From Gramella sp. Hel_I_59 (lineage in GTDB: Bacteria > Bacteroidota > Bacteroidia > Flavobacteriales > Flavobacteriaceae): DNA of 64,000 bases. The translations under genes were made by a program, and so were the position numbers. The stretch covers positions 1,922,001-1,986,000 of the forward strand of contig NZ_VFME01000001.1 of NCBI RefSeq assembly GCF_006714895.1. The letters are read 5' to 3'. The notes under the pieces were generated by a model. The model had not been told where the DNA came from and searched no databases. It saw nothing but the letters and a program-made list of their open reading frames with translations. Shown piece by piece: positions 7,265 to 11,192 of this stretch; positions within the stretch are counted from its first letter, which is position 1; each line of letters starts with the position of its first letter.

Positions 7265-8116
7265 TTAATTAAATTTTATTTCCCTGATATTTGCGGGTAC
7301 TCCTACTCTTTCATTAGAAATAAAAATCCTGCCATCTTTAGAAAATGCAATTCCTTCTGGTTGCTCGAATTCTGCCGGGTCGAGCAAGTGTATGGATTTT
7401 ATACCGCCTTGTTGATCGGTAATTATCACCTTCTGAAATTCAGCATCAAGAATATATAGATCGCCGGTTAACGGATGAATCGCAAGATCTGATGGTCTTA
7501 ATAGTTTTCTGGGATTATGAGTTTTTAAACGTTCAAACTTTGGATCTTCGTAGTCAACTCTTAAGATTGGTTCTTTCTGCAGTTTTCTGGTTTCCGGATC
7601 ATATTCATAAACACCTTTATAACCACTACTATTGTCCAGATTACGATCCTTGACTGTGATCCACAACTTTCCGTCTGGAGTTGCAGTCATACCTTCTATG
7701 TTGTTCCTGTATTCAAAATCCAACTGTATGCCCTCCAGTTCCTGATCTGCAACATCAAGATCTGAAACATCTATAATTCGCCCATTACTTTCAGCAACCC
7801 AGTAGACACCATCCAGATAAGTTAAAGCCTCATAATCTCCGGAATATGAAAACTTGTGTGTTTTAATGATCTCTTTCGTTTCCATATCAAAAGTAAACAG
7901 GATACCGTCCTCATCCTGCACACAGATCATAAGTCCGTCTTCATTATATACCATTCCGGAAACTTCATTTAATTCTGAAGGTAATTCCCATGACTCGACT
8001 ATTTCATAAGATTTCTCAACATCATTAAAATCATAATCATTTAATTGGTAGATCGCGTAAATGATTCCGGCCAAAACAATGACCATAGTTACGATTCCAA
8101 TAACCCACTTATTCAT
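7265..8116 (-). CDS. SdiA-regulated domain protein, membrane anchored
   Basis: A 283-residue protein with one N-terminal membrane segment (about residues 4-23) and then a beta-propeller-like region with repeated strand patterns (V-S-G-M-V-Y, E-G-M-T-A-T-P-D-G-K-L-W-I, P-S-D-L-A-I-H-P, E-G-I-A-F-S-K-D-G-R-I-F-I-S-N-E). This is the SdiA-regulated (YjiK-like) family, whose function is not established. The domain probably faces the periplasm. It converges with the M19 gene with one base between the stop codons. Confidence 0.78.
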   Translation of the reverse strand: MNKWVIGIVTMVIVLAGIIYAIYQLNDYDFNDVEKSYEIVESWELPSELNEVSGMVYNEDGLMICVQDEDGILFTFDMETKEIIKTHKFSYSGDYEALTYLDGVYWVAESNGRIIDVSDLDVADQELEGIQLDFEYRNNIEGMTATPDGKLWITVKDRNLDNSSGYKGVYEYDPETRKLQKEPILRVDYEDPKFERLKTHNPRKLLRPSDLAIHPLTGDLYILDAEFQKVIITDQQGGIKSIHLLDPAEFEQPEGIAFSKDGRIFISNERVGVPANIREIKFN

Positions 8117-8334
8117 ATAGACACATTTAAGTTCTAATGTACAATTAAGCCTATCTCATTGAAAAAGTTTAACAATACTTTGAACAGTGCACGCACCTTA
8201 TAATGTTAAAACTTGTTAATTCAGTACCTTTTATTGCATAGTACTGTAACATAACAAGTTTTGCCGCGTCTATTAAATAGAAACCATCATCAACAACATC
8301 AAAAATGGTTTAATAATCATCTAAAACTTTAATT

Positions 8335-8433
8335 ATGAGACATTCAATCAATCACACAAAAAGAAGACAATGCTTTATGAACACCGAGGCGAACCTACAG
8401 AGACAGGTATTTCCGAAGCGCAAAAGAGCTTAA
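8335..8433 (+). CDS. Small basic ORF A, 32 residues, first of a tandem related pair
   Basis: ATG at 8335, TAA at 8431. The peptide begins M-R-H-S-I-N and has F-M-N-T-E-A-N in the middle, then a basic tail (P-K-R-K-R-A). It shares 19 of 32 residues with the ORF starting 35 bases downstream. In the central block the two copies differ by silent changes (TTT/TTC, AAC/AAT, ACC/ACT, GCG/GCC), as expected if the peptide is under selection. There is no membrane segment or signal peptide. I do not recognise the family; a regulatory leader or nucleic-acid-binding micropeptide is possible. Confidence 0.55.
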   Translation: MRHSINHTKRRQCFMNTEANLQRQVFPKRKRA

Positions 8434-8467
8434 TCAAACTTATTCATCAATCATCAATACAATCATT

Positions 8468-8566
8468 ATGAGACATTCAATCAATCAAACCAAATCAAGG
8501 TCCTACTTCATGAATACTGAGGCCAACGCAGAAAGATCATTATTCTCCAATCGTAGAAAGTATTAA
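8468..8566 (+). CDS. Small basic ORF B, 32 residues, second of the tandem pair
   Basis: ATG at 8468, TAA at 8564, exactly the same length as ORF A. It opens with M-R-H-S-I-N, keeps T-K at residues 8-9 and F-M-N-T-E-A-N at residues 14-20, and ends in N-R-R-K-Y. Both copies have ATT or CATT directly before ATG and a stop codon followed by TCAA. The shared length, conserved blocks and silent differences argue for real coding. No function can be assigned. Confidence 0.55.
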   Translation: MRHSINQTKSRSYFMNTEANAERSLFSNRRKY

Positions 8567-8623
8567 TCAATCATCAAAAATTTATCAATCATGACAAGTC
8601 TGGAAAGTAATATACAGGTTTTT

Positions 8624-8667
8624 GGAAATGCCAGAACCGGTGGCATCACACACCGGAGGCCATTTCT
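8624..8667 (+). ncRNA. Long imperfect hairpin in the small-ORF transcript
   Basis: GGAAATG (8624-8630) pairs with CATTTCT (8661-8667), CC (8631-8632) with GG (8658-8659), and CCGGTG (8637-8642) with CACCGG (8651-8656), with an 8-base loop and small internal loops. It is not followed by T residues, so it is not a simple terminator. It sits between ORF B and the terminator at 8767. It could be a stability element, a regulator binding site or part of a small RNA. Confidence 0.4.
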
Positions 8668-8766
8668 AAACATCAAATCATCACACAGGTCTAAATTTAG
8701 CGATCAAAAATACACTGCATGAAAGGACCATTTTATCAATCAAATCATCACAACTACAGTTAAGAA

Positions 8767-8800
8767 AGAGGTTAATAGTTTTATTAGCCTCTTTTTATTT
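8767..8800 (+). terminator. Terminator closing the small-ORF locus
   Basis: An 11-base stem (8767-8777 with 8782-8792, one G-T pair), 4-base loop, then a T-rich run. It closes a transcript covering the twin ORFs and hairpin, and separates it from the PBP gene. Confidence 0.85.
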
Positions 8801-8879
8801 AACAAAATTTATAAATTAAGCTTAAAATATAATTCACTAGTGCAAACATTCGTTTATTTGCAAACCTTACTACTCAAGA

Positions 8880-11192
8880 ATGTTAGCGAAACTAAAGAAC
8901 AATCCCATTATTCGATGGGCACTTATTATTATATCCAGCCTTACAGGGTTTTTCCTGCTTTTTTTTGCCAGTATCTATTTTGGCCTCTTCGGAAAAATAC
9001 CTACAGAATCTGAACTTTCATCATTACAACAAAATAAGGCCACCCAGGTCCTCGCTTCTAACGGCGAGTTAATAGGTAAGTTCTACGTTTATGATCGCCA
9101 ACCCATCGATTTCGATCAGCTTCCCTCCCATCTCATTGAAGCCTTAATTGCTACTGAAGATGCACGTTTCTATGAGCATGATGGTATTGATAATCGTAGT
9201 TTAGGAAGGGTTTTCTTTAAATCGATTTTACTTCAGGATGATTCTGCCGGAGGTGGAAGTACGATTACTCTTCAGCTGGCCAAAAATATTTATGGTAGAA
9301 AAGATTACGGAATCCTAGGCATTGTGATCAACAAAATGCAGGAAGCTGTAATTGCGAAACGTCTGGAAAATGTTTATAGTAAAAATGAACTCGTCCAGCT
9401 ATATTTTAACACGGTACCATTTAGTGATAATACCTACGGAATTGAAAGTGCTTCCATGAAATTTTTCGATAAACATACTGTGGATCTTAAGCTCGAAGAA
9501 GCTGCAGTACTTGTCGGAATGCTAAAGGCAAGTCATTATTACAATCCGCGAATCTTTCCAGAAAGAAGCAGACTTCGTCGTGATGTTGTGCTTATGCAAA
9601 TGGCGAAATATAACTACCTGAGTGTGCCACAAGCTGAAGAAGCCAAGATGTTGCCACTTATTCTGGATTATCGAAGTTATAGTCATGATAAAGGTATTGC
9701 ACCCTATTTTAGAGAACAGGTACGCAAAGATGTTTCAGGAATCCTGGATACTTTAAAGAATAAGGATGGAGAAAAGTACAATATATATAGAGATGGTCTA
9801 ATAGTTCATACCACGCTAAATTACGAAATGCAACAGCTTGCTGAAGAGGCTATGCGAGAGCATATGTCTCAATTGCAAAACGATCACGAGAAATCCTACG
9901 GGAATTATGGTCCATGGGAAAGGAATAAGAAGGTATTGATGGACGCTGTAAAGCGCAGTTCAAGGTACCAGAAGCTTTCAAAAGAAGGTCTTTCAGAAGA
10001 ACAGATCCTGGAAAAAATGGAACAGAAGCATTCTACTGAGTTGTTTACTTACGACGGAATGGAAACTAAAAATGTGAGCAGCATAGATAGTATTGCACAT
10101 TACTTGAAATTTCTGAATTCCGGACTTCTGGCAGTTAGTCCTAAGGATGGTGCTGTCCAGGCCTGGGTTGGAGGAGTTGACTTCCGTTTCTTTAAATATG
10201 ATCATGTGAGCCAGAGCAAGAGACAGGTTGGATCTACCTTCAAACCTTTTGTTTATACCGCTGCCCTTGAAAATGGAATGGATCCATGTACCTATTTTTC
10301 GGTTCGAGAAGTTACGTATGATAAAGGCTGGACTCCTTCCAATTCTTCTTCGGAAGGAGATGATCCAAATATGAATTACAATCTAAAGACGGCACTTAGT
10401 AAGTCCATGAATACCATCGCCGTAAAAGTTTTAATGGAGACAGGAATTCCAAATGTGATCAGGCAGGCCAGAGATCTTGGAATAGAATCTGATCTCCCGG
10501 CTGTTCCTTCCATTGCACTAGGAACCGCTTCGCTTAATTTAGAGGAAATGACAGGTGCTTATTCAGCTTATGCAAATGATGGATATGCTGCCAAGCCATT
10601 CTACATCAGTAGAATCGAAGATGCTGAAGGTAATGTGCTAGCTACTTTTAAACCCAAGGTTTCAGAAAAAAAAGCTTTTTCCGAAGATACCCGCAAAATA
10701 ATGGTCAATATGATGCAGGCTACTGTGGATGAAGGTACCGCAAGCCGACTTAGATACAGCTATGGTTTAAGAAATGACATCGCAGGTAAAACCGGAACGA
10801 CTCAGGATAATAAGGATGGTTGGTTCGTGGGAATAACGCCAGAACTGGTTTGTGTAACCTGGGTAGGATCTGATGATCACCGTATAGGTTTCAGGAATAC
10901 TGGAATTGGCCAAGGAGCAAATTCGGCACTACCGATCTTTGCGAAGCTAATGCAGAAAATGAATGCAAGTTCAAGTTTTAATGCTATTACCAATGCGAGA
11001 TTTCAACCTTTGTCTTCAGAGCTGGCAAACCTGATGGAATGCCCGCCAGAAGAACGTGATAACTTTTTCGAAAGACTGTTTTCCGGTAAAAATAAAGATC
11101 GGAAAGACAGATTAGACGATAAGGATGAAGAAGATGGGAAGAAGAAAAAAGGTTTCTTCAAGAAACTCTTCGGTAAAAAAGACGATAATTAG
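8880..11192 (+). CDS. Class A penicillin-binding protein (transglycosylase/transpeptidase)
   Basis: A 770-residue bifunctional cell-wall enzyme with one N-terminal membrane anchor (about residues 10-33). The GT51 glycosyltransferase domain has catalytic Glu93 in A-T-E-D-A-R-F-Y-E-H-D-G, plus G-G-S-T-I-T-L-Q-L-A-K-N. The transpeptidase domain has Ser452-T-F-K455, S-M-N at 509-511 and K-T-G-T at 637-640. It polymerises and cross-links peptidoglycan in the periplasm and is a beta-lactam target. The last roughly 40 residues are a Lys/Asp-rich charged tail of unknown role. Its stop overlaps the convergent helicase gene by 4 bases. Confidence 0.95.
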   Translation: MLAKLKNNPIIRWALIIISSLTGFFLLFFASIYFGLFGKIPTESELSSLQQNKATQVLASNGELIGKFYVYDRQPIDFDQLPSHLIEALIATEDARFYEHDGIDNRSLGRVFFKSILLQDDSAGGGSTITLQLAKNIYGRKDYGILGIVINKMQEAVIAKRLENVYSKNELVQLYFNTVPFSDNTYGIESASMKFFDKHTVDLKLEEAAVLVGMLKASHYYNPRIFPERSRLRRDVVLMQMAKYNYLSVPQAEEAKMLPLILDYRSYSHDKGIAPYFREQVRKDVSGILDTLKNKDGEKYNIYRDGLIVHTTLNYEMQQLAEEAMREHMSQLQNDHEKSYGNYGPWERNKKVLMDAVKRSSRYQKLSKEGLSEEQILEKMEQKHSTELFTYDGMETKNVSSIDSIAHYLKFLNSGLLAVSPKDGAVQAWVGGVDFRFFKYDHVSQSKRQVGSTFKPFVYTAALENGMDPCTYFSVREVTYDKGWTPSNSSSEGDDPNMNYNLKTALSKSMNTIAVKVLMETGIPNVIRQARDLGIESDLPAVPSIALGTASLNLEEMTGAYSAYANDGYAAKPFYISRIEDAEGNVLATFKPKVSEKKAFSEDTRKIMVNMMQATVDEGTASRLRYSYGLRNDIAGKTGTTQDNKDGWFVGITPELVCVTWVGSDDHRIGFRNTGIGQGANSALPIFAKLMQKMNASSSFNAITNARFQPLSSELANLMECPPEERDNFFERLFSGKNKDRKDRLDDKDEEDGKKKKGFFKKLFGKKDDN

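Follow-up and report, generated by a model that had tools for sequence, protein, structure and literature searches.

Two short open reading frames of equal length lie side by side in an intergenic gap of Gramella sp. Hel_I_59, raising the question of whether they encode real products and, if so, how their expression would be controlled. The window (the whole stretch of DNA that was analyzed, 64,000 nucleotides) comes from a 3.44-Mb genome in a single contig. Coordinates and alignment agree with the first-pass annotation that the two frames, A1 (8335-8433, plus strand) and A2 (8468-8566, plus strand), each comprise 32 codons plus TAA, are separated by 34 bases and encode 32-aa peptides identical at 19 of 32 residues. 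The codons of the 19 common residues are the same in 11 cases and synonymously different in 8, in line with its remark on silent differences. The gap, described as about 760 bases, measured 763 bases (8117-8879). The description of a pair held for these two frames but not for the array, because a third related gene, B (8591-8722, plus strand; 43 aa), had been overlooked. A1, A2 and B carry net charges of +8, +5 and +5, respectively, and all three are small and basic, with no long hydrophobic stretch as judged by eye.

The genes are embedded in what looks like a self-contained unit. Each A copy is followed by an ATCA-rich spacer, as reported at first pass (8434-8467 between A1 and A2 and 8567-8590 between A2 and B, both plus strand), and the spacers are alike in the other arrays read. 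The strong terminator placed near 8767 corresponds to an intrinsic hairpin 3′ of B (8763-8796, plus strand; 15 pairs with a T-rich 3′ arm and tail; fold energy of −16.7 kcal/mol, z of −5.26), which was detected by folding and overlooked by a generic terminator scan. Scans of the window for tRNAs, Rfam families and generic sigma-70 promoters gave nothing useful. The flanking genes are a divergent SdiA-regulated/NHL-type gene (7265-8116, minus strand; PF06977, E of 7e-10) and a PBP1A-family penicillin-binding protein gene (8880-11192, plus strand; Pfam and NCBIfam scans). Absent from the first-pass annotation was a conserved promoter/operator element upstream of A1 (8204-8272, plus strand). It consists of a TGTTAA direct repeat in two copies at a distance of 10 bp (8204 and 8214; 8204-8219), which may be a second regulator site or an upstream element, the palindrome TACCTTTTATTGCATAGTAC (8225-8244), a proposed PadR site, and the core promoter TGTAAC-N16-CGTCTA (8245-8272), with ECF-sigma-like −35 (TGTAAC, 8245-8250) and −10 (CGTCTA, 8267-8272) boxes. 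A1, A2 and B would share one mRNA of about 0.5 kb, made from one promoter.

To judge whether the frames are coding, homologs were collected from the genus Christiangramia (Gramella). A search with the A2 peptide found matches in 19/24 genus genomes, the source genome included, with no internal stop among the matches listed, the type of lesion that had been named at first pass as evidence against coding. An alignment search added the array of G003, giving tandem homologous arrays in 20/24 genomes; none was found in the four others searched (G002, G006, G008 and G019). In the loci read, one to four A peptides (28 to 36 aa, consensus MxTLxSNTKxRKSFMNTEAN...RRRFA) are followed by one or two B peptides (30 to 46 aa, mostly 42 to 46, MxxLDSIIQDFGxxKEGGLTHRRPFLNLK...). 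The A core [KR]-x-R-x-x-F-[ML]-N and the B core R-R-x-F-L-N have an R-R/K-x-F-[LM]-N-like motif in common, and the window peptides fit the family by profile similarity over most of their length (B against the B profile, which contains it, E of 1.1e-19). The promoter/operator element lies upstream of all genus arrays read. An NHL-type gene homologue adjoins 20/20 genus arrays checked and a PBP1A homologue 19/20, the 20th locus ending too early. At a second, unlinked locus of G003 (L345, G003:C86:68700-70400; 445-582), a B-like peptide is encoded together with another small ORF; the ATCA-rich spacers are the same as in the arrays, and the GTACTGTAAC promoter is absent.

A Ka/Ks-type comparison, suggested as a check at first pass, indicated purifying selection. 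Between the source genome and G014, A1 differs by 13 silent and 0 replacement changes. Pooled over A1, A2 and B in 18 pairwise gene comparisons among four genomes (the source genome and its nearest relatives G022, G012 and G014), pS was 0.31 and pN 0.036, for a pN/pS of about 0.11; family-wide, pN/pS was 0.18 to 0.28 in five of the peptide classes described below. Products under purifying selection, rather than chance ORFs, are well supported by these comparisons. Together with homology, open frames and the conserved promoter, they bear out the earlier proposal of a selected micropeptide family; the recurrence of homologous arrays under such selection puts the pair far beyond chance.

The promoter was then used to look beyond the genus. 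The ECF consensus pairs a −35 containing AAC with a −10 CGTC, and the array promoter has both at a fixed spacing, which suggests that the core promoter is of the ECF-sigma type. The full pattern TGTAACN{16,18}CGTCTA occurs once on the forward strand of the source genome, as does its backwards control. The pattern GTACTGTAACN{15,19}CGTC was present in 169/397 Flavobacteriaceae genomes sampled (backwards control about 31, counted by eye); the spacer was exactly N16 at 158/160 unique aligned sites, and TTAA-type repeats were kept across 158 aligned sites. In a phylum sample, 6/296 genomes had the pattern, all six of them Flavobacteriaceae (backwards control about 8, by eye). A scan of named genomes gave at least 119 stretches with the pattern; among the 80 matches listed, labels were Flavobacteriaceae genera, Flavobacteriales or Bacteroidetes, and the genera included Maribacter, Algibacter, Winogradskyella, Gelidibacter, Psychroflexus, Arenibacter and Eudoraea. 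One locus, L280 (G299:C88, around 1279), has a second array on the same contig in which the palindrome is kept and a sigma-A-like TATCTTTG replaces the ECF-like −10, as if sigma dependence had switched. Operator and core promoter are therefore separable.

Downstream of these promoters, micropeptide genes are nearly always present. Profile HMMs found at least one member within 750 bases at 218 of 228 unique Flavobacteriaceae promoter sites, superseding a crude regular-expression count of 198/228. The sites, drawn from mixed genome sets including GTDB records, were kept if at least 400 bases of sequence followed them, and only those with identical local sequence were merged, so that 228 sites do not amount to 228 independent species. 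The best E value was below 1e-5 at 215 of the 218 sites with members. Because these ORFs had also served to train the HMMs, the reverse-strand count, which was zero, is the meaningful control. Each site has one to five members of about 28 to 44 aa, and the CGTC lies a median of 40 bases from the ATG of the first. The loci fetched contain 572 classified members, not all from different species. Median net charge is +6 in four of the six classes and +4 in two. Besides A and B, the classes (named in this analysis) are R28 (MRTLNNNQLTGTL..TKS..WN.KRRYR), which has a conserved basic aromatic end, K37 (..TATES....FS...SKR.QW...RNYNR), C44 (..KISR......IWKGTKRYAH) and W42. Of the 10 sites without a member, five also lack the palindrome (L068, L254, L265, L316 and L342) and look like chance matches. 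The other five (two in L090; L140, L174 and L206) have the palindrome and lie in front of a gene for an acidic protein of 151 to 188 aa with internal repeats (DLDWSTIELIEIEEEVELGFDTSKYLPKNFNALKG) that is apparently exported; one of these proteins was scanned and had no match in Pfam or NCBIfam. This protein may represent a second type of target of the same circuit.

Relations between the classes were weak at the level of sequence profiles. Alignment of A with R28 by hhalign gave a probability of 8.6% (E of 0.001) and of A with B 30.9%, and the best between-class probability was 35%. Given these weak scores, what would link the A peptides of the window to R28 is a common promoter, a common place and a set of bridging peptides. 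In G280, which belongs to another genus, MKTSETISRALFNQERNSTKKNWNSKRRYLR and two similar ORFs lie between NHL-type and PBP1A homologues (L100), and in G331 (g112) this NHL-PBP1A place is occupied by MIDLEIASRKMLFNTASSTRSCWNGRRRFNH. The A profile matched 157/397 family genomes at E up to 1; outside the genus, the only convincing match was in G054 (E of 0.0018), beside a dipeptidase gene, a kind of gene also found near the window array. Other A-profile matches outside the genus were short and at chance level and were rejected. The B profile matched 44/397 family genomes at E up to 0.1; its matches beyond the genus were convincing in G134 and G331 and, through their context, in G054 and G280 (g32). 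A search with R28 covered 51 genomes, of which 17 belong to genus g128 (possibly Flavobacterium), 6 to the rest of the order and 28 to the rest of the class, and gave five matches at E of 0.005 to 0.044, none convincing.

While the core promoter marks arrays across the family, the palindrome connects them to one other locus. In the source genome, the exact palindrome pattern occurs only at the array and at an operon encoding a PadR-type regulator, where TACTTTGCTTTGCATAATAC lies about 0.76 kb upstream of padR. This operon encodes a DUF4870 protein, PadR (8e-19), a 590-aa protein with PspC (1.7e-19), LiaI-LiaF-TM_PspC (6e-41) and Toast-rack (7e-41) domains and then a DUF2807 protein. The 590-aa protein, a putative membrane sensor, probably also has a HAAS domain, which scored 19.4 bits against a Pfam cutoff of 27. 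Between the operator and the DUF4870 gene, the leader contains a 41-aa ORF (L410, around 2066-2191; MKRSIKKQSVTSVLPGTLADRIKIYITIFAIYVYVFSTIIF) with a hydrophobic C-terminal half and no Pfam match, possibly a further small protein of the circuit. PadR was found in 23/24 genus genomes, at 85 to 89% identity to a query from other genera, and the strict operator lies 0.7 to 0.8 kb upstream of padR at 19 of these 23 loci. The loci without it are those of G004, G006, G008 and G016, of which G004 and G016 carry arrays; in G002 the operator is present at padR and no array was found.

Exact TACYWTKYNNNRCATARTAC was found in 10/10 Christiangramia genomes at exactly two places, array and padR, although these are not ten independent tests, since the pattern was derived from the two sites of the source genome and the genomes are related to one another; matches elsewhere in the 10 genomes were mismatched and about as frequent as in the control. 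In a search of 13 genomes that allowed up to two mismatches, the palindrome recurred at a second place, although chance-level control matches were common (0 to 3 per strand and genome). In the six loci read, this second place is between a DUF4442 gene (in most cases with AIM24) and a DUF4870-PadR-PspC-type operon. Across the family, the exact operator was present in 304/378 genomes (backwards control about 15, by eye) and absent from 74. Of 30 loci found by the operator only and inspected, one per genome (three were already among the two-mismatch loci, and a few other listed places look like chance), 21 were padR loci and 9 were arrays. Eight of the nine have the array promoter and micropeptide members, and the ninth (L437) is an array with a slightly different −35. 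The search pattern that yielded most array loci included the right end of the operator, so that operator counts there are partly circular. A related, more symmetrical palindrome, TACTTTGTAATTCAAAGTAC, and variants of it occur in several genomes, sometimes twice (e.g., G177:C1:2663989 and G040:C4:387482), and are perhaps sites of a paralogous regulator. In the array, the palindrome is directly adjacent to the −35 box; in the padR promoter, it is located upstream of a sigma-A-like TATATTTG box. Both positions suit a repressor.

The sequences show the array, the selection acting on it, conservation of its promoter and operator and, in the places inspected, an operator that is shared almost exclusively with the padR locus. 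In the model that we favor, the array is probably a dedicated micropeptide output, a short stress operon, of a PadR/PspC envelope-stress circuit. A PadR-type repressor, encoded elsewhere with a PspC/LiaI-LiaF-TM/Toastrack (probably HAAS) sensor, would bind the palindrome and silence the array. Membrane stress, once detected by the sensor, would lift PadR from both promoters, and an ECF-type holoenzyme would then transcribe the array up to its own terminator. The tandem copies would serve to increase the dosage of several small basic peptides, whose level of translation and target are likewise postulated: they would act in trans on an anionic partner (nucleic acid or ribosome, or phospholipid or membrane protein) and so protect the cell. 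We infer relief of PadR by stress, ECF-dependent transcription and peptide build-up from the palindrome positions and from precedents in other PadR systems.

One set of precedents comes from Listeria, in which sigC encodes an ECF sigma factor. DUF1700 and DUF4097 genes accompany those of the Listeria PadR repressors LltR and LstR, the second of which represses the promoter of the sigC operon (PMC6624303), a precedent for pairing a PadR with an ECF sigma factor. The effectors described in the available portions of that paper are membrane proteins or exoproteins, in contrast with the basic micropeptide arrays found here. Dyads of HAAS and PadR, together with PspC and Toastrack, have been put forward as membrane-stress switches and alternatives to two-component systems, and the available text mentions no micropeptide target (PMC11237479). 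The window locus encodes no protein of this kind; its sole tie to such systems is the operator. In Flavobacterium psychrophilum, targets of SM6/ECF-type promoters include T9SS genes, and the accessible parts of that account describe neither a micropeptide array nor a palindrome (PMC9723704).

The same regulation could serve a different function. The peptides might be ribosome or RNA binders, as accessory ribosomal or hibernation-like factors that slow or protect translation in stress, rather than envelope effectors. E. coli SRA and RMF are small basic ribosome-associated proteins, and the window peptides resemble them in being small and basic, with no Pfam matches to such families. The class-median charges, the conserved basic aromatic end of R28 and the tandem dosage, which fits a stoichiometric binder, are consistent with this idea. 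We nevertheless consider it unlikely: similarity to curated families was not found, structural matches were uninformative (PDB profile matches were discounted as short, compositional or helical, and an AlphaFold model was helical with low confidence, pLDDT of 63 and pTM of 0.16), and the only locus besides the arrays at which the operator was found in the places inspected encodes a membrane sensor.

Control of the array by PadR is suggested by the habits of the family, and another regulator could govern both padR and the array, such as a response regulator of the OmpR type acting on the TGTTAA repeats, with PadR as a co-target. TGTTAA does precede the palindrome in the padR operon as well as in the array. 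The exact genome-wide specificity, however, belongs to the palindrome, and PadR operons of Listeria are under negative feedback (PMC6624303, as far as the available portions go), so that we regard control by another regulator as improbable. A third possibility is that the peptides act as feedback ligands, tuning the switch itself by binding to PadR or to the HAAS/PspC sensor. This would account for the near restriction of the operator, in the places inspected, to padR and arrays, a distribution under which the circuit appears to have a single dedicated output. A very conserved PadR (85 to 89% identity) would then need to accommodate several divergent peptide classes, which makes this option quite doubtful.

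A pure RNA role, with incidental ORFs in a regulatory transcript, might be read from the short interval, the strong terminator and the fold of 8280-8800 (z of −2.3; 3 of 100 shuffles fold as well), but it was rejected as very improbable given coding selection (pN/pS of 0.11 in the close clade and 0.18 to 0.28 in five classes) and zero Rfam matches in the window at the gathering score. The regulatory leader considered at first pass, in the form of leader or arrest peptides for the same-strand PBP1A gene at 8880 (PBP1A is next in 19/20 genus loci checked), is equally remote and was likewise rejected, since a strong terminator intervenes, other genera have different downstream genes (a recurrent neighbor there is presumably ExbD-like, by its look) and several tandem copies are unusual for a leader. 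Of the other functions offered at first pass, a toxin-like and a nucleic-acid-binding peptide are both candidates. An envelope-stress output of the PadR/PspC circuit is the reading that we prefer.

The peptides themselves do not belong to catalogued families. A1, A2 and B matched no family in Pfam, NCBIfam, PHROGs or PADLOC, and one peptide each of R28, K37, C44 and W42 had no match in Pfam and NCBIfam; no description of such a micropeptide family was found in searches of the open-license PMC literature. The stress circuit belongs to a known kind, and the micropeptide arrays appear to be new as its output. Annotation tends to skip such short genes, which would explain how they were overlooked. 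The strict cis element reveals micro-ORFs too short and divergent for ordinary homology searches, and the uncatalogued gene family already has several hundred members.

Flavobacteriaceae are abundant aquatic bacteria, and to our knowledge little is known of their envelope-stress responses. On the present evidence, there is about an even chance that, throughout the family, a PadR-PspC envelope-stress switch has tandem, multiparalogue basic micropeptides (28 to 44 residues, cytosolic, in polycistronic arrays) as its only dedicated output. The conserved operator, which in each genome labels one sensor operon and one effector array or a few, defines a testable circuit. Similar arrays behind an operator otherwise found at putative membrane-stress sensor genes would make these micropeptides an overlooked stress-controlled family of the Flavobacteriaceae.
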